From Paenisporosarcina sp. FSL H8-0542 (GTDB taxonomy: Bacteria; Bacillota; Bacilli; Bacillales_A; Planococcaceae): a stretch of 64,000 nt of DNA. Below, piece after piece: positions 4,900 through 51,660 of this stretch; position 1 is the stretch's first letter, and the number at the start of each line of letters is the position of its first letter. The notes under the pieces are model-generated. The model searched no databases and was not told the origin of the DNA. It saw nothing but the letters and a program-made list of their open reading frames with translations. The position numbers and the translations under genes are program-made. Location of the stretch: positions 361,501 through 425,500 of the forward strand of contig NZ_CP152050.1 in NCBI RefSeq assembly GCF_038632915.1. The letters are read 5' to 3'.

Positions 4900-5168
4900 C
4901 ATGCCCGGTGCATGGTACCATTTCTATACGCAAAAGATGAATGATTAAATAAAAAGTTGTGGAGTAGTGCTTTTGTTTTATTCTGGTATAGAACCAATAA
5001 CAGCAAAATATACATCCTATGCTCAATTTTCTGAAAAGTATAAATATGGGATGATGAAAGACAGAATCGAGTTAACTAGTTTCATGGATTCTTCTTTAAA
5101 AGACTTGTTTGTAAAAAATATAAGTAAAGCTAGAAAAAAACAATTACAAAAGGACAAGGGGATGCGGT

Positions 5169-8100
5169 ATGAAGAGGAAAAAAATCAATAAGGTTCTTAC
5201 AGGAACGTTAGCTGTTGGCATGTTATTATCTCAAGGTGCTCCATATAACGTATTGGCGAAAAGCCCGTTTGAGCTGAATCCAGTTGAAAATGCGGAAGAG
5301 ATCTTAGCGAGCCTGTCTGTAGAACAAAGAAAGGCATTAGAGCAATTAGAAACAAATACAACCTTTATCATTTCACCGGATATTGATGCGAATAGCACTG
5401 AATTAGTCAAAGTCATAGTCGAATTTGAACAGGCGCCGGCGAAAATTGAAGTGATGAAACAAGCAGCGAAAGGAAAGAAACTATCTTCTGCTGATGCGAA
5501 TGAGAAAGTGGAAAAAGCTCACAAAGATTTTAAACAGCATGTGCAATCATTGAAAGTGCAGAAGAACTTGACCGAATACAAAGTGGAAGATGTAAACATT
5601 ACAAGAGAGTATAAAAAAGCCATCAACGGTGTAGCGATGACACTGCCTGGTGTGGCAGTTAATGATTTGCTGCAATCCGGTGTAGTTAAACATGTCTTTA
5701 AAGATTACGAGGTAAAAGTGGATCCCTCGGTAGAAACGAAAGTAGCCATAGATCCTAAAATGGCGGATAGTATTCCGCAAATTGGCGTGGACAAGCTTCA
5801 TGCCGAGAATATTAAGGGGAAAGGCATTAAAGTCGGTGTGCTGGATACAGGGATTGACTACAATCATCCAGACTTAAAAGATGTTTATAAGGGCGGATAT
5901 GATTTTGTAGATGATGATGCAGATCCGATGGAAACAACCTATCAGGATTGGATCGATGCTGGCGAGCCAGTATTTCCGGGTCGTGTGTATTACACGAATC
6001 ATGGAACGCATGTCGCAGGGACGATTGCAGCCCAACAGAAAAACGTTGTGGATTACGCTGTAAAAGGGGTAGCACCGGAAGTAGATTTATATGCTTATCG
6101 AGTATTGGGAGTTTGGGGTGGAGGAGATACTGCGGGAATCCTTGCTGGAATCGATCAAGCGATTACAGATGGCATGGACGTCATCAATATGTCGCTCGGC
6201 GCCGCGACGAACAATCCTTTATATCCCACTTCTGTTGCAGTAAATAATGCCATGCTTTCAGGTGTGGTAACCGTCGTTGCTGCAGGTAACGCCGGACCGA
6301 ACGAAAAAACGCTTGGTTCTCCAGGTGCAGCGGCTCTCGGTATTTCAGTAGGGGCAAGCGATGTTTCCATGACCATTCCTACATTTAGTGGAAGCGTTTT
6401 CACTAATGAAAATGATAATTTGCAACGTCTCGGCGATGACCTTTCTCCTCAACTAGAAGATTCAAAACGTCTTGGCAAAGATTTTTCTCCTAAAATAGAA
6501 GATAAGAGGAAGGGCTTGTCTCACCAATTAGAAGATTTGCAACTTCTGGGCAAAGACTTTTCCGACCAATTAGAAGATTTACAAGGACAATCTTTACCAA
6601 TTGTATTTGCGGGACTTGGTAAAGCAACTGATTTTGCCGGGAAAGATGTCAGCGGGAAAATTGCGTTGATTCAGCGCGGGGAAATTGCATTTGATGAAAA
6701 AATCAAAAACGCCAAAAACGCTGGGGCTAAATCAGTGATTGTGTATAACAATGTCGACGGGCAAATACCTTCCTACTTGGGCGAGGTCGTCGGTTTAATC
6801 CCTTCTTTCCGTCTGTCAAAAGCAGATGGTGAGCGGTTAAAGGAGCTAGAAGAAGGTTCTTTCACATTTGAAACGTTAAGTAATACAAAAACAGAAGGCG
6901 ATCATTTAGCAGATTTCAGTTCACGCGGGCCGGTAGAAGGAAATTATGATATCAAGCCGGATGTAGTCGCTCCAGGTGTGTCCATATTCTCCACGACACC
7001 GGAATTCATCAATGATCCACAGGATGGCATGAATTACGAGAATGCCTACGTACGTATGTCGGGGACATCGATGGCCTCGCCACATGTGGCAGGTGCAGCC
7101 GCATTGATTTTACAGGAGCATCCGGAATACACGCCTTTCGATGTGAAGTCGGCACTCATGAATACTTCGGATGATTTACAAGGGGATAATTCTGTATACG
7201 AAGTGGGCGCAGGACGAATCGATGCCTATCAAGCGGTTCATACAGATACCTCCATCAAAGTATGGGATAAGACACAAAATATCGAAAATGGAAACGTCGT
7301 AGAAATTGATGAACTAACAGGCTCCATTGTATTCGGCAGATATTATAAAAAAGGTAATGAACCAATTGAAGCAAGCAAAAAGGTGACGGTTCAAAACAGC
7401 AGCGAAGAAGAAAAATCTTTTACACTAGAAGTGGAGTATCACGGTGAGCGCAAAGGTATTCAAGATGCTGTGAATAACGGTGTTACAGTGGATGTACCTT
7501 CATCGATTACAGTGGGAGGCGGCCAAGTAAAGGAGCTCCAGCCAAAAATAACGATTCCAACCAGCGCTGCGTCAGGAAGATATGAAGGGTATATTCATGC
7601 GACCAATACCAACAATCCAGACGAAACCTATCAAATTCCATTTGCTGTGATGGTGACGGAAAAGGGAATTGCTTATCTCAAAACGACTAGACCATCCGTG
7701 ACAAATATGAATCCTAACTGGCTAAATCATGACCCAATCATTCATGGCATCATGAAGTTGAATAGCCCAATGAAAACCATGGATGTGCTTGTAAAAGACA
7801 GTGAAACAGGAAAAGCTGTAGGGTTCCTAGGAACAGCGAATATGAGTAAATTACTAGTAGACGTAGATACATTTCTTGTGGGTGCGTTCGCCGGTTCGGT
7901 CTATCCATTTACAAATGATCCTTCCAAGCCGATCAGTGATTATGCTGTAAAGCTTCCAGCAGGCGATTATATACTGGAAACAATTGCACACGATGAGGAA
8001 GGTGGATCATATGTTACACACAATCCGCTTATCGTGGACAACACAGTACCAGAAGTGAACATGAATATAAAACCGGGTGTAATCGAAGTTAATGATTCGA

Positions 8101-10768: not shown

Positions 10769-11066
10769 AAAAAATCCCACCTCCAAGACGATTTGTCTTG
10801 GGGACGAGATTGACATGTCGTGGTACCACCCCAGTTTGTCCTGATGTCACCATCAGAACCTTTTCAAGTACGGCATATATTTCATGCTTATACTGTAGCT
10901 CGTTAACGGGAGCATCCGTCACACCATCCCCCTAAAATTCAAGGTTCCCATGTGAGGCTCAGAGACTTGTTTCAATCAGTGAATGCTTACCCTTTTTCAG
11001 CTGCGGGGCTCTCTGTTCAAGAATTCAGATGATTTACTGTTCTCATCATAGCTTTTAATTTTCGCT
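10769..11066 (-). promoter_or_regulatory. T-box leader (tRNA-sensing riboswitch) for the MFS gene
   Basis: On the minus strand the leader has an AGTA loop-E element, a GCTGAAA apical motif, a candidate specifier loop near 10960-10975, the conserved T-box core TGGGGTGGTACCACG (10820-10834) and a terminator (CCAAGAC / GTCTTGG then TTTTTTT, about 10769-10805). The specifier is not certain. By analogy with the proS T-box in this window, where the codon directly follows GAA, the triplet here is ACA (Thr), but the distance to the next conserved element is one base longer and CAA (Gln) is possible. Confidence 0.9.
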
Positions 11067-19529: not shown

Positions 19530-19812
19530 AAGGGACATACCCGATTGGGCATGTCCCTTATATAGATAAGATAACATAAAGTCTGAATGATAATTTTTCA
19601 TCCCGAATATTCGGGGAATAATTTCCTAAGAAAGTGTTCCTTGCTTTCCGTGCCGCGGTCATTTGTCCACTGGGTGTCTTCCTTAAGCAACGTAAACCCT
19701 ACCTTCTTTTACGTCCTTGCGACCCTATAGTCGCGCCAGTGTGAATAAGTTTAATCAAAAACATCGAGTAGATGCCAGAATTTCAAAACTTAATTGTTAC
19801 CTTACATGTTAA
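19530..19812 (-). ncRNA. Candidate free-standing structured RNA of about 280 nt, family unidentified
   Basis: No protein frame of note occupies 19510-19980. On the minus strand a good sigma-A promoter (TTGACA at 19843-19848, TAATAA at 19821-19826, 16-bp spacer) faces this interval. A clean hairpin closes it at 19530-19560 (AAGGGACAT / ATGTCCCTT, followed on the minus strand by TTCCAATTTT). In between, successive stem-loops can be drawn: TAAGTTT / AAACTTA capped by CATC-GATG; GCGAC / GTCGC with loop TATAGG; ACGTAAA / TTTACGT with loop AGAAGGTAGGG; TTGCTT / AAGCAA; and CCCCGAAT / ATTCGGGG. It does not match what I remember of 6S RNA, SRP RNA, RNase P, tmRNA or common riboswitches, and the next minus-strand gene is far away, so it is probably not a leader. 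Confidence 0.6.
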
Positions 19813-22204: not shown

Positions 22205-22460
22205 AAAAAAAAATACATAAAACGCATTCAGAAACGGTGTGCAAAAACCGAATCAGACAAAAAGATAGTTTTCATGGTCAATTACTTTGACAGTTCTGCA
22301 CATATTCAGTGCCAGTCCCAGCAACAGTAATCAGAGCGATCAGTGCTTCTGCGAAAAATCCTTTCGCTTGAAATCAGCAAGTTCAGTTCTCTGACTTTCT
22401 TTCAAGTAACTATTATTTATCGCGATCTCTACCTCATCTTAAGCTGATGAGGGCTATATT
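22205..22460 (-). promoter_or_regulatory. Lysine riboswitch (L-box)
   Basis: The minus strand shows the L-box landmarks in order: GATGAGGTAGAG, CGCGATAAATAATAGT, GAAAGG...TTTTTCGCAGAAG, GCTGGGACTGGCACTGAAT and GAACTGTCA. A weaker hairpin with a long T run (about 22205-22250) precedes the permease start, as expected for transcription termination when lysine is bound. Confidence 0.93.
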
Positions 22461-26519: not shown

Positions 26520-26924
26520 ATGAAACCTTCCATACTAATCCGCCCATACAAACCGAGTGACTATCCATTCATCAAGCAATTGAACCAGCTAGAAGGATGG
26601 AATAATCTTGTAGAAAAAGAAGAAGACACAAAAAAAGCGTGGGATCATTCCAATATTGCATATGTTGCAACAATCAATGAAGTAATAGTTGCCTATGTGA
26701 GGGGAATGACCGATCAAGCAATCACCCTTTATATTTGTGAAATCCTCGTCAGTGAACAGGTACGAGGTCAGGGAGTTGGGCAACAGTTGCTCAAGTTTGT
26801 ACATAACCAATACTCAACAACCAGAATGGAAATGTTGGCAAGCTCCACATCACATACTTATTATGAACAACATGGCTTCAGACCTTTTTATGGATTCCGT
26901 AAAACATTACCTGAATGGAATTAA
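26520..26924 (+). CDS. GNAT-family N-acetyltransferase
   Basis: A 134-residue single-domain GNAT. Acetyl-CoA pyrophosphate-binding motif A is EQVRGQGVGQQLL (about 80-92), preceded by the beta-4 strand ITLYICEILV; motif B ends YYEQHGFRPF. Start behind TTGAGGT. Substrate unknown. Confidence 0.85.
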   Translation: MKPSILIRPYKPSDYPFIKQLNQLEGWNNLVEKEEDTKKAWDHSNIAYVATINEVIVAYVRGMTDQAITLYICEILVSEQVRGQGVGQQLLKFVHNQYSTTRMEMLASSTSHTYYEQHGFRPFYGFRKTLPEWN

Positions 26925-27230: not shown

Positions 27231-27428
27231 TCACTTATTAATTTCACCAGTTGCCTGAATAAATGACTGATAGGTTACTGGACCAAAGTGGTTCGGATTT
27301 CCTTTAAAGAATTTTTCGAGCATGTATTGTTGTGCACAGATAACGGAGCATTGCTTCGCTTGGATAATTAAATTTAGATAAGCGATAAAATAGGCTATTG
27401 ATAGATTCCCGCCATTGTTTACGACCAA
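27231..27428 (-). CDS. Small cysteine-containing protein in the ars-like cluster
   Basis: A 65-residue frame with a TTG start 6 nt after a perfect GGAGGG site, 19 nt downstream of the flavoprotein gene, so it is probably translated. It reads MVVNNGGNLSIAYFIAYLN, then AKQCSVICAQQYMLEKFFKG. The two cysteines in CSVIC echo the cysteine pairs of its neighbours. No family recognised. Confidence 0.6.
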   Translation of the reverse strand: MVVNNGGNLSIAYFIAYLNLIIQAKQCSVICAQQYMLEKFFKGNPNHFGPVTYQSFIQATGEINK

Positions 27429-27446
27429 TTTAAACCCTCCATATTG

Positions 27447-28775
27447 TTAACAACATGAACTCTTCCCAAAGATATTTGTACTGCAAACACCCGTTTCAGG
27501 TAAATCCAGTTCCACACGTTTTGCTGCATCCTGATCACCTGTTAAGTGTGCAACAATGGAACGGACTTGTTCGTAGCCAGTGGCCATCAAAAATGTCGGC
27601 GCACGCCCGTAACTCTTCATGCCCACAAGATAAAAGTTCTTTTCTGGTTGCCGAAGTTCGGCTTCTCCGTGAGGACGAACGGTCCCGCAGCTGTGAATAT
27701 TCGGGTCAATAAGTGGTGCCAAAGCAGATACACTCTCGATAGCAGAATCAATGTCGAGTCTAATTTCACGCAGGAAACTGAAATCAGGTCGAGAGCCAGT
27801 GTTTGCAATGATTTCATCGATATTATCAATTGAGTATCTCTCGTTTTTCATAGTGCCATGAATGGTTAACTTGCCATTCTCTTTAGAGATTTCGTTTACC
27901 AGGAAAGGGGTATGAACGCTAATTTTGCCGCTGTCCACCAGTTGATGAATACGTGAACCTAATTGACCTCTTGCTGGAAGTGCATCCCGGGATTCTCCAC
28001 CATAAACTTCCTCGACACGATTCTTACGCAGAATCCATACGATTTCCGTTCCTTCCAATTCAGCTAATTCCAAGATTGTATTGATTGCAGAATGACCACT
28101 ACCGACAACCGCAACACGTTTTTGTTCAAATTTAATACGTTCTGTTTCTTTTATATTTGGAATGCCGTATTTGATATGAGGTGAAAGCAATTCTTCCCCC
28201 TTTGTCCACACGTTATCTGCATTCACAGGATTTGGTTGTGCCCAAGTACCAGTGGCATCTATGACTGCTTTTGCTTCAATTCTTTCAGTTGTGCCTTCTT
28301 TTTCGATATACAGGATGAAAGACTGTCCGTCTCTTTTGGCATCTTTCATTTTGTCCATTCCCTGTTTACTGATTGCCACTACTTTTGCATTTAATTTGAT
28401 GAATGGGTTAATTTGAGGCAGATTGGCTAAAGGGATTAAATAGTCTTCCACAAGATCTTTACCAAAAGGTAATCTCTTCATGACAGGTGCCTTCCAGTGG
28501 CTTTCTTCCAATAGCTTCAAAGCCACTTTGTCGATATTATATTGCCAAGGGGAAAATAATCGGACGTGACCCCATTTTAAAATATTATGTCCTACCGTGG
28601 ATCCGGCTTCGATTATCAAAAACTGTTCGTTTTTAGCTGCCAGATGCGCAGCTGCAGCCAAACCGACCGGCCCTGCTCCGACGATTACCGTTGGCAAATT
28701 CGTTTCCTCAAGTATAGATTCAGGAGAACTACAGCAATTCGTCAAAATGCTAAAACTCATTTTTTCATTGTTCAT
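27447..28775 (-). CDS. FAD/NAD(P)-binding monooxygenase-like flavoprotein (ArsO-like)
   Basis: About 442 residues with two Rossmann dinucleotide sites: FAD-binding VIVGAGPVGLAAAAHLA near the N-terminus and NAD(P)-binding VAVVGSGHSAINTI near residue 210, plus ATGTW as in flavin monooxygenases. It resembles ArsO-type enzymes found in arsenic operons. Unusual cysteines: NCCSS at residues 13-17 and a tail CSTN...KSSCC. The ATG at 28793 has no ribosome site and lies just after the operator; the ATG at 28775 behind GAAAGAGAG is preferred. The small gene at 27231 follows in the same transcript. The substrate, possibly an arsenical or other thiophilic compound, is inferred from context only. Confidence 0.8.
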   Translation of the reverse strand: MNNEKMSFSILTNCCSSPESILEETNLPTVIVGAGPVGLAAAAHLAAKNEQFLIIEAGSTVGHNILKWGHVRLFSPWQYNIDKVALKLLEESHWKAPVMKRLPFGKDLVEDYLIPLANLPQINPFIKLNAKVVAISKQGMDKMKDAKRDGQSFILYIEKEGTTERIEAKAVIDATGTWAQPNPVNADNVWTKGEELLSPHIKYGIPNIKETERIKFEQKRVAVVGSGHSAINTILELAELEGTEIVWILRKNRVEEVYGGESRDALPARGQLGSRIHQLVDSGKISVHTPFLVNEISKENGKLTIHGTMKNERYSIDNIDEIIANTGSRPDFSFLREIRLDIDSAIESVSALAPLIDPNIHSCGTVRPHGEAELRQPEKNFYLVGMKSYGRAPTFLMATGYEQVRSIVAHLTGDQDAAKRVELDLPETGVCSTNIFGKSSCC

Positions 28776-28797
28776 CGTTAGTCTCTCTTTCATTTAT

Positions 28798-28810
28798 TTG
28801 CAAAATGCAA
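28798..28810. promoter_or_regulatory. Putative MarR operator, copy 1
   Basis: The palindrome TTGCAAAATGCAA lies just upstream of the flavoprotein gene and is identical to the copy at 29328. Half sites TTGCA / TGCAA flank a 3-bp centre. Confidence 0.75.
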
Positions 28811-28845
28811 GTATATAGTGAATAAATAAGCAAGATTTCTCTTGC

Positions 28846-29292
28846 TCATATAATAGGCGTACAGCACACACTTGATTTTGCCATAGCATTATTCAATAAT
28901 TTAATAGATCTCAAGACTGTTTCTTGTTCAAATTCATTCATATGTGAAAAAATTTCATCTAAGTAATTATTCATGGAAGTTTCAATGGCAGTAGCCATGA
29001 ATTTACCTTGAGTAGTTAAGGATAAAATATAATACCTTTTATCATCAAGGGAAGGGGATTTTGTGACCAGTCCCATTTTGATTAATGTTTGAATCTGTCT
29101 ACTGAATGTCGTTACATCAATTGCCAAAAGCTCTGCAATTTGTTGCATGGTTGGTTCATGTTGTTTATCAATTTCGTATAGAATATGACTATGCACAGCT
29201 GAAATATCAATGCCACCAATGGTGCAACAATTTTTATTCAAAAGGCCGAAGCGGCGGGTCAATACTTGAAATAACTCACGTTTGTTTTCCAT
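28846..29292 (-). CDS. MarR-family regulator with paired cysteines
   Basis: A 148-residue winged-helix repressor. The recognition region reads TMQQIAELLAIDVTTFSRQI, followed by the wing SLDDKRYYILSLT. Atypical for MarR are two vicinal cysteine pairs, Cys22-Cys23 (NKNCCTIGG) and Cys143-Cys144 (SSVCCTP), the kind of site that could bind As(III), Sb(III) or a similar soft metalloid. It sits between the flavoprotein (same strand, downstream) and the divergent acetyltransferase; both control regions contain the same palindrome, the presumed operator. Confidence 0.88.
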   Translation of the reverse strand: MENKRELFQVLTRRFGLLNKNCCTIGGIDISAVHSHILYEIDKQHEPTMQQIAELLAIDVTTFSRQIQTLIKMGLVTKSPSLDDKRYYILSLTTQGKFMATAIETSMNNYLDEIFSHMNEFEQETVLRSIKLLNNAMAKSSVCCTPII

Positions 29293-29327
29293 GATTCACC
29301 TCTTTAATATAGTTATATGTTAATTGT

Positions 29328-29340
29328 TTGCAAAATGCAA
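29328..29340. promoter_or_regulatory. Putative MarR operator, copy 2
   Basis: A second exact TTGCAAAATGCAA in the 91-bp gap between the marR-like gene and the divergent acetyltransferase gene, placed to control both. Confidence 0.75.
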
Positions 29341-29383
29341 CTAAAAACTAAGATAAAATTAAATTGATAAAGAAGGTATAAAA

Positions 29384-29881
29384 ATGTCCGTAAAAATTCG
29401 TCCCATGCTGGCAACTGACTGGCAAGAAGTAAAAGAGATTTACGAAGAGGGCATCAAATCAAAAAATGCCACTTTTGAAACACAGGCACCCACGTATGAA
29501 AAATGGATGGAAACCTCTCATCCTGAGTGTCACATGGTTGCAGTAGAAAATAATCACGTGTTGGCTTGGGCGAAGGTGCTGTATACTTCGGCACGTCCTG
29601 TATATGCAGGGGTGGGTGAAGTTAGTATATACGTACATCCAGATGCGAAAGGTAGAGGTGTAGGCAAGCGTTTACTACAGGAACTAATCAAAACATCTGA
29701 ACAAAAGGGTTTTTGGACATTAAAAGCAGTCATTTTCCCTGAAAATGTAGCGAGCCTCAAACTTCATTTGTCCTGCGGTTTTCGGGAAGTCGGATTTCAT
29801 GAGCGAATGGGTAAGATGGACGGGGTCTGGCGTGATAATACGGTATTGGAAAGACGCAGCACACTTGTAGGTATTGACTAA
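29384..29881 (+). CDS. GNAT acetyltransferase of the phosphinothricin/arsinothricin type (ArsN1-like)
   Basis: A 165-residue GNAT. The substrate-side strand FETQAPTYEKW, motif A VHPDAKGRGVGKRLLQEL and the C-terminal HERMGKMDGVWRDNTVLERR match the PAT/ArsN branch, whose members acetylate phosphinothricin, methionine sulfoximine or the arsenic antibiotic arsinothricin. Divergent from the cysteine-rich marR-like gene with a shared operator, which favours the ArsN1 reading; YwnH-like PAT activity is the alternative. It starts behind AAGAAGG. Confidence 0.8.
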   Translation: MSVKIRPMLATDWQEVKEIYEEGIKSKNATFETQAPTYEKWMETSHPECHMVAVENNHVLAWAKVLYTSARPVYAGVGEVSIYVHPDAKGRGVGKRLLQELIKTSEQKGFWTLKAVIFPENVASLKLHLSCGFREVGFHERMGKMDGVWRDNTVLERRSTLVGID

Positions 29882-29897
29882 TACCTTTTTATTTAAA

Positions 29898-30142
29898 GGC
29901 TTTGTTAAACACTACTGTTGATTAGACACTCCGGCGGAATTACGTGCGGGCAAGACCTCGCAGCGAGGACAAAGGAACGAAAGCTAGAACGCCACCTCCC
30001 TGCTCCTGCGGTTACTCGTCGCAAAATGCAATTTTGTGGAAACGCCATCTTGAGCAACATCCTGTTGGCCCGAGGAGGCTTGCCTGTTCGTCCGCGGAAA
30101 GGGAGCAAATTCCCTAAATCAACATTAAAAGTTAACAGAGCC
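29898..30142. mobile_element. MITE-like repeat element, 245 bp
   Basis: Imperfect terminal inverted repeats of about 26 bp: GGCTTTGTTAAACACTACTG... at the left, and the reverse complement of the right end reads GGCTCTGTTAACTTTTAATG..., both ending TTGATT. Internal GC-rich dyads (CTCCGGCGGA / TCCGCGGA; CGGGCAAG / CTTGCCTG) allow a large foldback. It has no coding capacity and the base composition differs from neighbours. No clear target duplication was found. Confidence 0.75.
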
Positions 30143-30165
30143 TATATAAAAAAATGATCGGACAA

Positions 30166-30215: not shown

Positions 30216-30587
30216 TCATTTTTCCAACCACTCCAAAAATTCTAAGCGGTTTCCGAAAGGGTCATTAACATAAAAGCGGTTGGCTCCTGGTAATCTATCA
30301 TCCGTCAGTACCGATATGCCTTTACTACGAATATGATCAGCCAATGCTTCAAGTTCACTTACTTCGAAGGCAGGATGCGCTTTTTTTGCAGGAACAAAAG
30401 ATTGTTCTACGCCTATATGAATATGAACACTCCCATTTGAAAACCAAACTCCGCCATTCTGTTTCAGGCTATCAGGCTTTTCAACTTCTTCTAAAGAAAG
30501 AACGTCCCGATAAAAAGAGCGTGCTGTCTCTTCACTTCCTATTGGAGCAGCCAATTGAATATGGTCGATTTGTTTAATTAATATCAT
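30216..30587 (-). CDS. VOC-family (glyoxalase/dioxygenase-fold) protein
   Basis: A 123-residue single VOC domain: HIQLAAP (metal-ligand His in strand 1), FYRDVL, VHIHIGV, HPAFEV and the C-terminal FYVNDPFGNRLEFLE with the Glu ligand. The start at 30587 overlaps the end of the upstream MFS gene by 14 nt, so they are translationally coupled. The long frame to 30608 lacks a better site. Substrate unknown; candidates are a detoxified aldehyde or an antibiotic. Confidence 0.85.
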   Translation of the reverse strand: MILIKQIDHIQLAAPIGSEETARSFYRDVLSLEEVEKPDSLKQNGGVWFSNGSVHIHIGVEQSFVPAKKAHPAFEVSELEALADHIRSKGISVLTDDRLPGANRFYVNDPFGNRLEFLEWLEK

Positions 30588-31755
30588 TTTTAGTTTCCAA
30601 CCTTTCATGCTTGATTAAAGGCAATAAGAAGAGTGCACCGACAAACACTACAGATGCTGCACAAGAAATTGCTAATGCATAACTTTCGGTCTCGGCAGTT
30701 AAAACTCCTGCTATAGAGGGACCGAACATTTGTCCTAGTGCATAAATAGTGGTCATGATTGCGATAACTCTAGCACTGCCATGGGGATTTTTGTTACGAG
30801 CAAATGCTGTGGCAAGAGTGGTAACCCCCATAAAAGTAGCTCCAAATAAAACAGCACTCACATAAAAGCTTGTAGAAGATTCAGACAGGGCTGGCAAAGC
30901 GATACCAATCGACTGGATAATCAATAAAATCATCAGTGACAACATGTAGCCAAATTTACTGCCAAAATAAGCCCATATAATACACGAAGGAATTGCAGCC
31001 AAACCGACTAAAACCCAGACACTCGTAGCGTTTCCACTGAAAGCGGGAGTCATTTCAGCGATGGCTACAATAAATGTGCCTGTCACGATATAACCTAATC
31101 CTTCCAACCCATACGCTACGAGTAACCATGGTAGCCATTTTGGTGTTTTGGATGGTGTTGAGATGTTCGCGGCTGAACTAATAGTCGGTTCAGCGTGGTC
31201 TTCTTTAACAGTTGAGAAGACTACGATACTTAATACTGCTGCCAAACACGCAAGTCCTATCCAGGCACCTTCGTACTGAAACTTGTTTATTAATAGTGGA
31301 ACAAGCATGCCTGATACGAAAATTCCTAGACCAACTCCTCCATACATGACACCGACCAGACCGAGTTTACTTTGTTTGGCCAACTGATCCAATATCAAAC
31401 TGGAAGCAAGGACGAAGACGAATGCACTTGTAATGCCGGACAGGAATCGCCAGACCATCCATGCGGTATGATTATATGTAAGTCCCATGACTAACGTTAA
31501 TAAAATACTGATGACAATAGAGATACGCAAAAAAATGGCCCGGTTGCGCTTTAAAGGAACGACGCTTGCAATCACGGCACCTACCAAATAACCAGCATAA
31601 TTACTTGATGCCAAATATCCGGCAAATCGGGTAGAGAAGCCACTTTCATGTTGCATAAAAGGTAGAATTGGCGTGTAGGCAAAGCGGCCGATACTCATGG
31701 CAATAAACAGAGCAAAAACGCCTCCGGTAACAAGTAAATAAGGATTTTTAGACAA
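30574..31755 (-). CDS. YbfB/YjiJ-family MFS transporter
   Basis: A 393-residue, 12-helix MFS protein. The N-terminal GRFAYTPILPFMQ and SSNYAGYLVGA are the signature of the YbfB/YjiJ family. The start is a TTG 8 nt after GGAGGGGG. It forms an operon with the downstream VOC protein. The family is uncharacterised; context suggests export or uptake of the VOC substrate. Confidence 0.88.
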   Translation of the reverse strand: MSKNPYLLVTGGVFALFIAMSIGRFAYTPILPFMQHESGFSTRFAGYLASSNYAGYLVGAVIASVVPLKRNRAIFLRISIVISILLTLVMGLTYNHTAWMVWRFLSGITSAFVFVLASSLILDQLAKQSKLGLVGVMYGGVGLGIFVSGMLVPLLINKFQYEGAWIGLACLAAVLSIVVFSTVKEDHAEPTISSAANISTPSKTPKWLPWLLVAYGLEGLGYIVTGTFIVAIAEMTPAFSGNATSVWVLVGLAAIPSCIIWAYFGSKFGYMLSLMILLIIQSIGIALPALSESSTSFYVSAVLFGATFMGVTTLATAFARNKNPHGSARVIAIMTTIYALGQMFGPSIAGVLTAETESYALAISCAASVVFVGALFLLPLIKHERLETKNDIN

Positions 31756-51424: not shown

Positions 51425-51660
51425 TAATAAACAAAAAAGCTCTGCAACAAACGAGGGACCATGTCTCCATGGCGGTACCACCCTCATTTGAAGCAAAGCT
51501 TCACACTCATACATGTTAACGACTGTCGCCGCGAATATCTTTCGAGATCGAACTCAAAGGTAGGTTCAAGAAGTGGTCTTTAGGAGTCTTTCACCGTACA
51601 ACTCCCTCTCTAAAAAAACACACGTTTCTTTACTGGTCCTTCTCAACGTTGTTTAACTAT
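51425..51660 (-). promoter_or_regulatory. T-box leader of proS with a proline specifier
   Basis: On the minus strand: CAGTAAAGAAAC (loop-E side), the specifier context TTGAACCTACCTTTGAG with CCT (Pro, 51562-51564) directly after GAA, the T-box core GAGGGTGGTACCGCC (51471-51485) and a terminator ending GAGCTTTTTTG. Confidence 0.95.

Follow-up and report, generated by a model that had tools for sequence, protein, structure and literature searches.

Introduction

In the account given in PMC11868830, arsenic operons are mostly controlled by ArsR; the same source describes SpArsR, which is without the third cysteine, as responding to methyl-As(III) (MAs(III)) and not to As(III), and CgArsR as having vicinal cysteines of one monomer. 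A two-cysteine site that selects MAs(III) thus has a precedent, because SpArsR is described there as behaving in this way. Methylarsenite and arsinothricin are treated as antibiotics in the literature, and in reviews ArsV is summarized as a flavin monooxygenase that oxidizes methylarsenite. Here, we consider a locus of four genes at positions 27231-29881 of a 64,000-nucleotide stretch of the genome of the soil-type bacterium Paenisporosarcina sp. FSL H8-0542 (contig NZ_CP152050.1, positions 361,501 to 425,500; hereafter, the window). The locus is likely to be an organoarsenical-resistance module controlled by a MarR-type repressor that carries two pairs of vicinal cysteines. The minus strand carries, in order of transcription (27231-29292), the genes for the MarR regulator, a flavoprotein, and a 65-aa protein, and an acetyltransferase gene diverges from the MarR gene.

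An earlier note, made from the letters of the stretch alone, had proposed an arsenical-resistance module here. The four open reading frames (ORFs) and the cysteine motifs that it had pointed out (pairs at 22-23 and 143-144 in the MarR protein, NCCSS and SSCC in the flavoprotein, and CSVIC in the small protein) were all found at the positions that it gave, and its reading of the locus is largely, though not in every detail, supported by the conserved MarR cysteines, a shared site, and organoarsenical gene neighbors. We regard it as very likely that the module serves arsenical resistance.

The regulator is of MarR type and retains two cysteine pairs

The regulator (148 aa; 28846-29292, minus strand) scores 42.5 bits against PF01047, above the cut-off of 24.6 for the MarR family, and stays below the thresholds of the ArsR/SmtB models, with 16.8 bits to HTH_5 (cut-off 22) and 20.1 bits to NF033788 (cut-off 55). 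C22-C23 and C143-C144 are each adjacent at the level of sequence, and any spatial arrangement of the pairs is a prediction from that. Among the 20 MarR-family frames of the genome, only this one contains any CC.

Relatives were collected in two ways. The flavoprotein-drawn set comprises 80 named loci with flavoprotein relatives (the best 80 of 122 confirmed), 60 of which contain an orthologous MarR. To avoid bias from the flavoprotein query, 398 Bacilli genomes were also searched with a MarR alignment; a match at ≤1e-30 occurs in 83 of them, at 95 places in total, and 60 of these places, fetched with flanks, form the MarR-drawn set (one of them, L273, gave no MarR ORF). Across 60 relatives, C22 and C23 are retained in 60/60 each, C143 in 60/60, and C144 in 59/60, so that the MarR-type, cysteine-paired nature claimed for the regulator in the earlier note, as opposed to an ArsR type, holds both by family score and by conservation. 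All four cysteines are likewise present in 57 of 62 MarR ORFs from the MarR-drawn loci together with two further loci, L212 and L215, and for 53 of those 57 an arsenic gene (ArsR included) lies in the fetched stretch. More distant MarR relatives, about 25-27% identical (H101, H102, and H105), are found on proteobacterial plasmids, where they are annotated as helix-turn-helix/GNAT fusion proteins.

The regulator prefers organoarsenical partners

A survey of gene neighborhoods, which the earlier note had proposed, finds the cysteine-paired MarR recurring beside organoarsenical genes. For the 62 MarR-type genes in the 60 MarR-drawn loci (60 detected by profile and 2 more distant ones by BLAST), the gene directly behind is of organoarsenical type in 49 cases: an ArsP-type permease (17), a flavoprotein (11), ArsM (8), an ArsO-like protein (6), ArsN (5), or ArsI (2). 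The remaining next genes are ArsR (1), an MFS protein (1), other (3), or none (8), and neither ArsB nor ArsC occurs there (0 each). In the same loci, the gene next after ArsR (n = 36) is ArsB 17 times, other 16 times, ArsO-like once, and none twice. An arsenic gene (ArsR excluded) lies within 1.5 kb of 54 of the 62 such MarRs, vs. 0 of the 19 other MarR-family frames of the Paenisporosarcina genome. As for the names used here, 4 of the 8 ArsM proteins were checked (351-369 bits; cut-off 263), as were both ArsI proteins (157 and 167 bits; cut-off 116); PF03773, the ArsP family, is passed by 3 of the 17 permeases and by the L212 permease; ArsB and ArsR were each confirmed by model score for one representative; and the ArsC, ArsA, and ArsD clusters were named by sight.

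Several individual loci illustrate the arrangement. In NCBI annotation, plasmids of Paenibacillus bovis and P. polymyxa carry in a row a MarR, an arsenite methyltransferase, and arsinothricin N-acetyltransferase ArsN1 family A; on the P. polymyxa plasmid, the MarR is followed first by one small hypothetical gene. The plasmids of Cohnella herbarum and Paenibacillus sp. Cedars have an unlisted stretch behind the MarR, and the first gene listed beyond it, about 1.35 kb from the MarR, is that of an arsenite methyltransferase. All four plasmids (4/4 examined) have the palindrome described below before the MarR, and two also have it just behind. L212 and L215 show the order MarR, ArsP-type permease, ArsN, and small protein, with the flavoprotein absent and the palindrome between MarR and permease, at the permease start. 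Elsewhere, cysteine-pair MarRs are followed by genes for a beta-lactamase-fold protein (L282:3531-4370), an LPG-synthase-like protein 297 bases off (L286:3169-4137), and an MFS transporter (L309:4841-6190), which are possible further regulon members.

A palindromic site accompanies the regulator

The identical palindromes reported in the earlier note were confirmed: TTGCAAAATGCAA stands at 28798-28810 in the gap between the MarR and flavoprotein genes (predicted operator 1) and at 29328-29340 in the divergent region between the MarR and acetyltransferase genes (predicted operator 2). The second copy contains the -35-like TTGCAA of a candidate MarR promoter, TTGCAA-16-TATATT at 29333-29306, on the MarR side of the operator (a consensus match only, with 13 such matches found vs. 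7.3 expected in the region). By count alone the palindrome is unremarkable, since the window holds 11 matches with at most 2 mismatches vs. 6.8 expected, and 7 of 100 shuffles reach 11. It is conservation in relatives, and not its frequency in the window, that lifts the site above chance.

Of the 60 flavoprotein-drawn loci with this MarR, 44 have TTGCA-N3-TGCAA close to at least one of the two gene starts (37 close to that of the MarR and 23 close to that of the flavoprotein). In loci without this MarR, by comparison, a site near the flavoprotein start is found in 0/20 (Fisher p 2e-9 against 44/60, with relatedness ignored). Over all 80 loci, the start regions of MarR and flavoprotein genes hold 60 sites in 30.6 kb, vs. 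9 in 1012 kb elsewhere. When 119 MarR genes were reduced to 59 representatives below 80% identity, 36 had an exact site nearby and 14 a site with 9 of 10 bases; control windows of equal length from the same loci, which may themselves contain true sites, gave 3.1% exact and 3.9% at 9 of 10.

The site also distinguishes the two kinds of regulator. At its own start it is present for 36/60 MarR genes vs. 0/65 ArsR genes in the flavoprotein-drawn loci, and for 34/62 MarR and 9/36 ArsR genes in the MarR-drawn loci, where all 9 site-bearing ArsR genes are divergent from a MarR within 400 bp. When L212 and L215 are added to the MarR-drawn loci, 42/62 have a palindrome no more than 700 bp from the MarR. 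In the flavoprotein-drawn loci, the wider footprint of the site is approximately TAnTTGCAwwwTGCAAnTA. From these patterns in sequence we consider it highly probable that the MarR of the cluster regulates the module through TTGCA-N3-TGCAA.

Genome-wide, TTGCA-N3-TGCAA occurs at 14 places, 3 of them TTGCAAAATGCAA. The third TTGCAAAATGCAA (C1:2663086) was rejected as a further operator, as it lies within a piece of a dispersed repeat, and the only two copies outside that repeat are those of this locus; a palindrome with 1 mismatch at 30019 was set aside on the same grounds. None of the other 11 places stands directly before a recognized arsenic gene, with neighbors judged by sight. One of these 11, C1:917567, is intragenic and about 1.2 kb before a flavoprotein of CzcO/ArsO-like look. 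The repeat is represented in the window by a 255-base member at 29896-30150. Genome-wide, 60 pieces that match it were reported, with scores computed for 40 of 98 candidates, and near C1:2650019-2650316 some pieces are tandem arrays with a 26-base core at 34-base spacing.

The flavoprotein

The FAD/NAD(P) flavoprotein (27447-28793, minus strand) is a pyridine-nucleotide/flavin oxidoreductase by its score of 87.1 bits to PF13738 (cut-off 30). Of the two candidate starts, ATG 28775 appears likelier than ATG 28793, which is only 4 bp from the palindrome. None of the 25 NCBIfam matches listed passes its cut-off; the best among them is YpdA, at 65 bits vs. 339.9. The description "ArsO-like" in the earlier note could not be kept, and ArsO identity was rejected, given 51.7 bits to NF040505 against a cut-off of 425; nearer ArsO relatives (283-284 bits, also below cut-off) are separate neighboring genes. 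Cysteine pairs are indeed found at both ends of the protein, as NCCSS close to the N-terminus and as SSCC at the very end, but the N-terminal pair is not universal: by alignment column its two cysteines are present in 59/80 and 58/80 relatives, those of the C-terminal pair in 76/80 and 75/80, C369 in 80/80, and C437 in 78/80. In 58/80, the final 8 residues include a CC, many relatives having longer tails; the flavoprotein of this locus has no CxxC in its sequence. The C-terminal CC tail is reminiscent of mercuric reductase. Our best guess is an ArsV-like activity.

The closest named locus, in Paenisporosarcina sp. HGH0030, has a flavoprotein 98% identical to this one. The regulator before the flavoprotein can be swapped: in 9 of the 20 loci without this MarR, ArsR directly precedes it. 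On an Ensifer plasmid, a 46.6% identical relative is flanked by ArsR and ArsK, and ArsR is itself preceded by an ArsN1b-like GNAT (137.7 bits; cut-off 210). An MFS transporter cluster occurs in 15/80 flavoprotein loci (e.g., L057:7656-8903); no NCBIfam model matches its representative at 1e-8, and the cluster, in this locus and the 14 others, could be an ArsW- or ArsK-like exporter.

The acetyltransferase and the small protein

The GNAT acetyltransferase (29384-29881, plus strand) is nearest to ArsN1 family A, at 150.5 bits to NF040503, followed by ArsN1b at 74.5 and phosphinothricin acetyltransferase at 52.6 bits. ArsN1a is thus the best family by 76 bits, yet its equivalog cut-off of 170 is not reached, so that the ArsN1 assignment of the earlier note stands as to nearest model and falls short as to membership. 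Nor does the protein group with unrelated GNATs, as judged by profile scores. Its cluster is found in 47/80 flavoprotein loci.

The gene for the 65-aa protein (27231-27428, minus strand) begins with TTG behind a GGAGGG ribosome site, 18 bp after the flavoprotein gene. We take it to be coding because of that ribosome site, because of its low dN/dS (0.08-0.35 for the 9 sequence pairs, out of 15, that allowed its computation, with dS often >1), and because homologues adjoin the flavoprotein, the small-protein cluster being present in 27/80 flavoprotein loci. The product belongs to no Pfam or NCBIfam family (a scan of 36 members touched three families, one member each, with a best E of 0.015), and F14, F41, and G49 are invariant in 36/36; it is in this sense the undescribed small partner that had been suggested, conserved and without a family name. 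The CSVIC motif is present, but a thiol role for it was rejected, with C27 conserved in 20/36 and C31 in 8/36; the most we would say is that the protein may be a non-thiol accessory protein.

The small protein is linked to, but not confined to, organoarsenical genes. It was found in 26/398 Bacilli genomes at 1e-6. On three Staphylococcus plasmids it precedes ArsR and a permease (of the three permeases, one was tested for PF03773), with an ArsM-like methyltransferase then following on one of the three (345 bits to NF040538; cut-off 500), and on a fourth it precedes the flavoprotein. Of 29 fetched small-protein neighborhoods, 7 are without a recognized arsenic gene, and three of these 7 are near phosphate-uptake-like genes (by sight). 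At L222-L224, near 5030-5290, 65-aa relatives stand beside PstS-like phosphate-binding and permease genes, away from ars genes, again by sight. At L140 (plasmid SAP008A of Staphylococcus sp. 693-2, from poultry litter), the small protein and flavoprotein are beside ArsR on a 10-kb mobilizable plasmid, which also encodes a SLATT-domain protein and then a reverse-transcriptase-domain protein.

Arsenic genes elsewhere in the genome and other window features

The earlier note had also held that the usual ArsB and ArsC genes are lacking. This is true only locally: C1:466178-468194, some 41 kb past the window end, holds an arsR-arsB-arsC operon, so that the cell has an inorganic system too, at another place, and among the flavoprotein loci ArsB or ArsC is in the fetched stretch of 51/80 and some canonical ars gene in 57/80. 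The genome further encodes an ArsP-family (PF03773) protein at C1:840163 and has a shorter match at C1:562637. A search of it for ArsM gave no protein that exceeds the cut-off.

Two neighbors in the window were rejected as arsenic genes, namely a second GNAT (26520-26924) as ArsN2, at 23 bits vs. 125, and a VOC protein (30216-30608) as ArsI, with no ArsI match. At the locus itself, neither an Rfam scan (at the gathering threshold) nor a tRNA scan returned a match; elsewhere in the window, Rfam matches (10797-11058, 51451-51655, 22258-22439, and 19677-19764) comprise two T-box leaders, a lysine riboswitch that precedes a permease-like gene, and BsrC.

Proposed mechanism and alternative explanations

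From the gene set, the conserved cysteines, the site tied to this MarR, and the preference of the MarR for organoarsenical partners, we infer a working mechanism that extends to DNA binding, the inducer, the enzymatic reaction, and the role of the small protein. A resting MarR dimer would occupy TTGCA-N3-TGCAA, with operator 2 covering the -35 of the regulator's own promoter in the MarR/ArsN region and operator 1 lying between MarR and flavoprotein genes. The cysteine pairs would be bridged by a trivalent arsenical that binds thiols (in all likelihood methylarsenite or a relative, and possibly also As(III) or Sb(III)), and release of the repressor would lead to production of the flavoprotein, small protein, MarR, and acetyltransferase. 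The flavoprotein would then oxidize the trivalent arsenical with NAD(P)H, using C369, C437, and the C-terminal CC as a catching site, the acetyltransferase would block amino-acid arsenicals of the arsinothricin type, and the small protein may act as an accessory without thiols. It is probable that the MarR, as a vicinal-thiol repressor, governs an organoarsenical regulon in parallel to ArsR, with its inducer and chemistry put forward as predictions. As its natural signal we favor, with moderate confidence, a trivalent organoarsenical rather than As(III).

Several observations weigh against this picture. At best 8 of 10 site bases are reached by 9 of the 59 MarR representatives, and 16/60 loci with the MarR have no exact site near the MarR or flavoprotein start. 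Four of the 57 four-cysteine MarRs are without a recognized arsenic gene in the fetched stretch, and 3 MarRs with incomplete cysteines nevertheless have one. No gene (8) or an unrecognized gene (3), including those for beta-lactamase-fold and LPG-synthase-like proteins, follows 11 of the 62 MarRs, and the ArsO-like names rest on scores under the ArsO cut-off. Canonical ars genes are also present in 38 of the 60 flavoprotein-drawn MarR loci, and As(III) could therefore be the signal. In that case the MarR would sense inorganic As(III) or Sb(III) as ArsR does, and the module would be auxiliary to the general ars response, with the flavoprotein oxidizing, for example, Sb(III) or As(III). The canonical ars genes found in 57 of the 80 flavoprotein loci and the ArsR that heads the flavoprotein in 9 of the 20 loci without this MarR fit such a role, and the three ligands that As(III) needs could be supplied by the four cysteines of each MarR subunit. 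We nonetheless consider it unlikely, since the partners of the two regulators differ (organoarsenical-type genes behind the MarR and never ArsB, vs. ArsB behind 17/36 ArsR genes in the same loci, where the other genes behind 16/36 include some of a length fitting an Acr3 pump), and two sensors of As(III) would be redundant.

The same partners bear on a broader possibility, in which the MarR responds to quinones, sulfane sulfur, or oxidants as a general thiol/redox or electrophile switch, the flavoprotein reduces disulfides or quinones, and the arsenic genes are nearby by coincidence. MarR proteins that sense sulfane sulfur or quinones are described in PMC11211675 and PMC6798810, and YpdA is the best NCBIfam match of the flavoprotein, far below cut-off as that match is. 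The idea is nevertheless very improbable, in view of the arsenic genes close to 54/62 such MarRs and to none of the other MarR frames of the genome, of the ArsM, ArsI, ArsP, and ArsN partners, and of a flavoprotein sequence without CxxC. The divergent acetyltransferase might, separately, be a phosphinothricin-type (PAT) or other GNAT enzyme placed beside an arsenic operon by chance. Its score below the ArsN1a cut-off and the labeling of several of its closest solved structures as phosphinothricin acetyltransferases would be in keeping with that, but ArsN1a is ahead of PAT by about 98 bits, the cluster recurs in over half of the flavoprotein loci, and on two plasmids a gene that NCBI names ArsN1 family A follows MarR and ArsM; we judge a chance placement distinctly unlikely.

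Significance and comparison with known systems

A regulator of a family not normally linked to arsenic stands, together with one and the same DNA site, beside organic-arsenic defense genes in many Bacilli, which suggests an overlooked organoarsenical sensor. On balance, and by a little better than even chances, we think that this Bacilli MarR lineage is a dedicated sensor of trivalent organoarsenicals separate from ArsR, with one operator and an exchangeable regulon (ArsP, ArsM, ArsI, ArsV-like flavoprotein, ArsO-like protein, ArsN1, and the 65-aa protein). We see the system as a resistance regulon of a familiar type, placed under a regulator family that was not expected for it, plus one unnamed small protein. 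If this is correct, a second regulator family would explain how Bacilli could answer methylarsenite and arsinothricin separately from inorganic arsenic, and it would yield a biosensor candidate, a 13-bp site for locating unrecognized organoarsenical genes, and a conserved small protein as a target of study. To our knowledge, there is no earlier MarR-type sensor devoted to organic arsenic, and no MarR regulator of arsenic genes was among the matches listed in a search of open-access literature (titles and abstract starts, with most subscription journals outside its scope).

The operator of E. coli MarR consists of two 5-bp arms with a short spacer. The MarR of this cluster shares with that protein the MarR fold and a similar 5-3-5 palindromic build, and differs from it in the arms themselves, in its vicinal cysteine pairs, and in its arsenic gene neighbors. 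ArsO (NF040505) and the flavoprotein of the cluster are of the same broad class and have an ars neighborhood in common, but are set apart by score; the likeness to ArsV, also a flavoprotein in an ars context, is one of description. For the acetyltransferase, ArsN1 family A (NF040503; PpArsN1, described in PMC6465285) is the best-scoring family and shares the arsenic context, with the score under the equivalog cut-off and the substrate putative. Closest in overall design are the ArsR/SmtB regulators, as exemplified by the SpArsR and CgArsR of PMC11868830: these too are winged-helix repressors with a cysteine arsenical site and arsenical-resistance neighbors, and for one ArsR that source describes an operator overlapping the -35, as we propose for the MarR of this locus. 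Unlike ArsR, however, the regulator here is a MarR-family protein, has one cysteine pair at either end of its chain, and is associated with the site TTGCA-N3-TGCAA.

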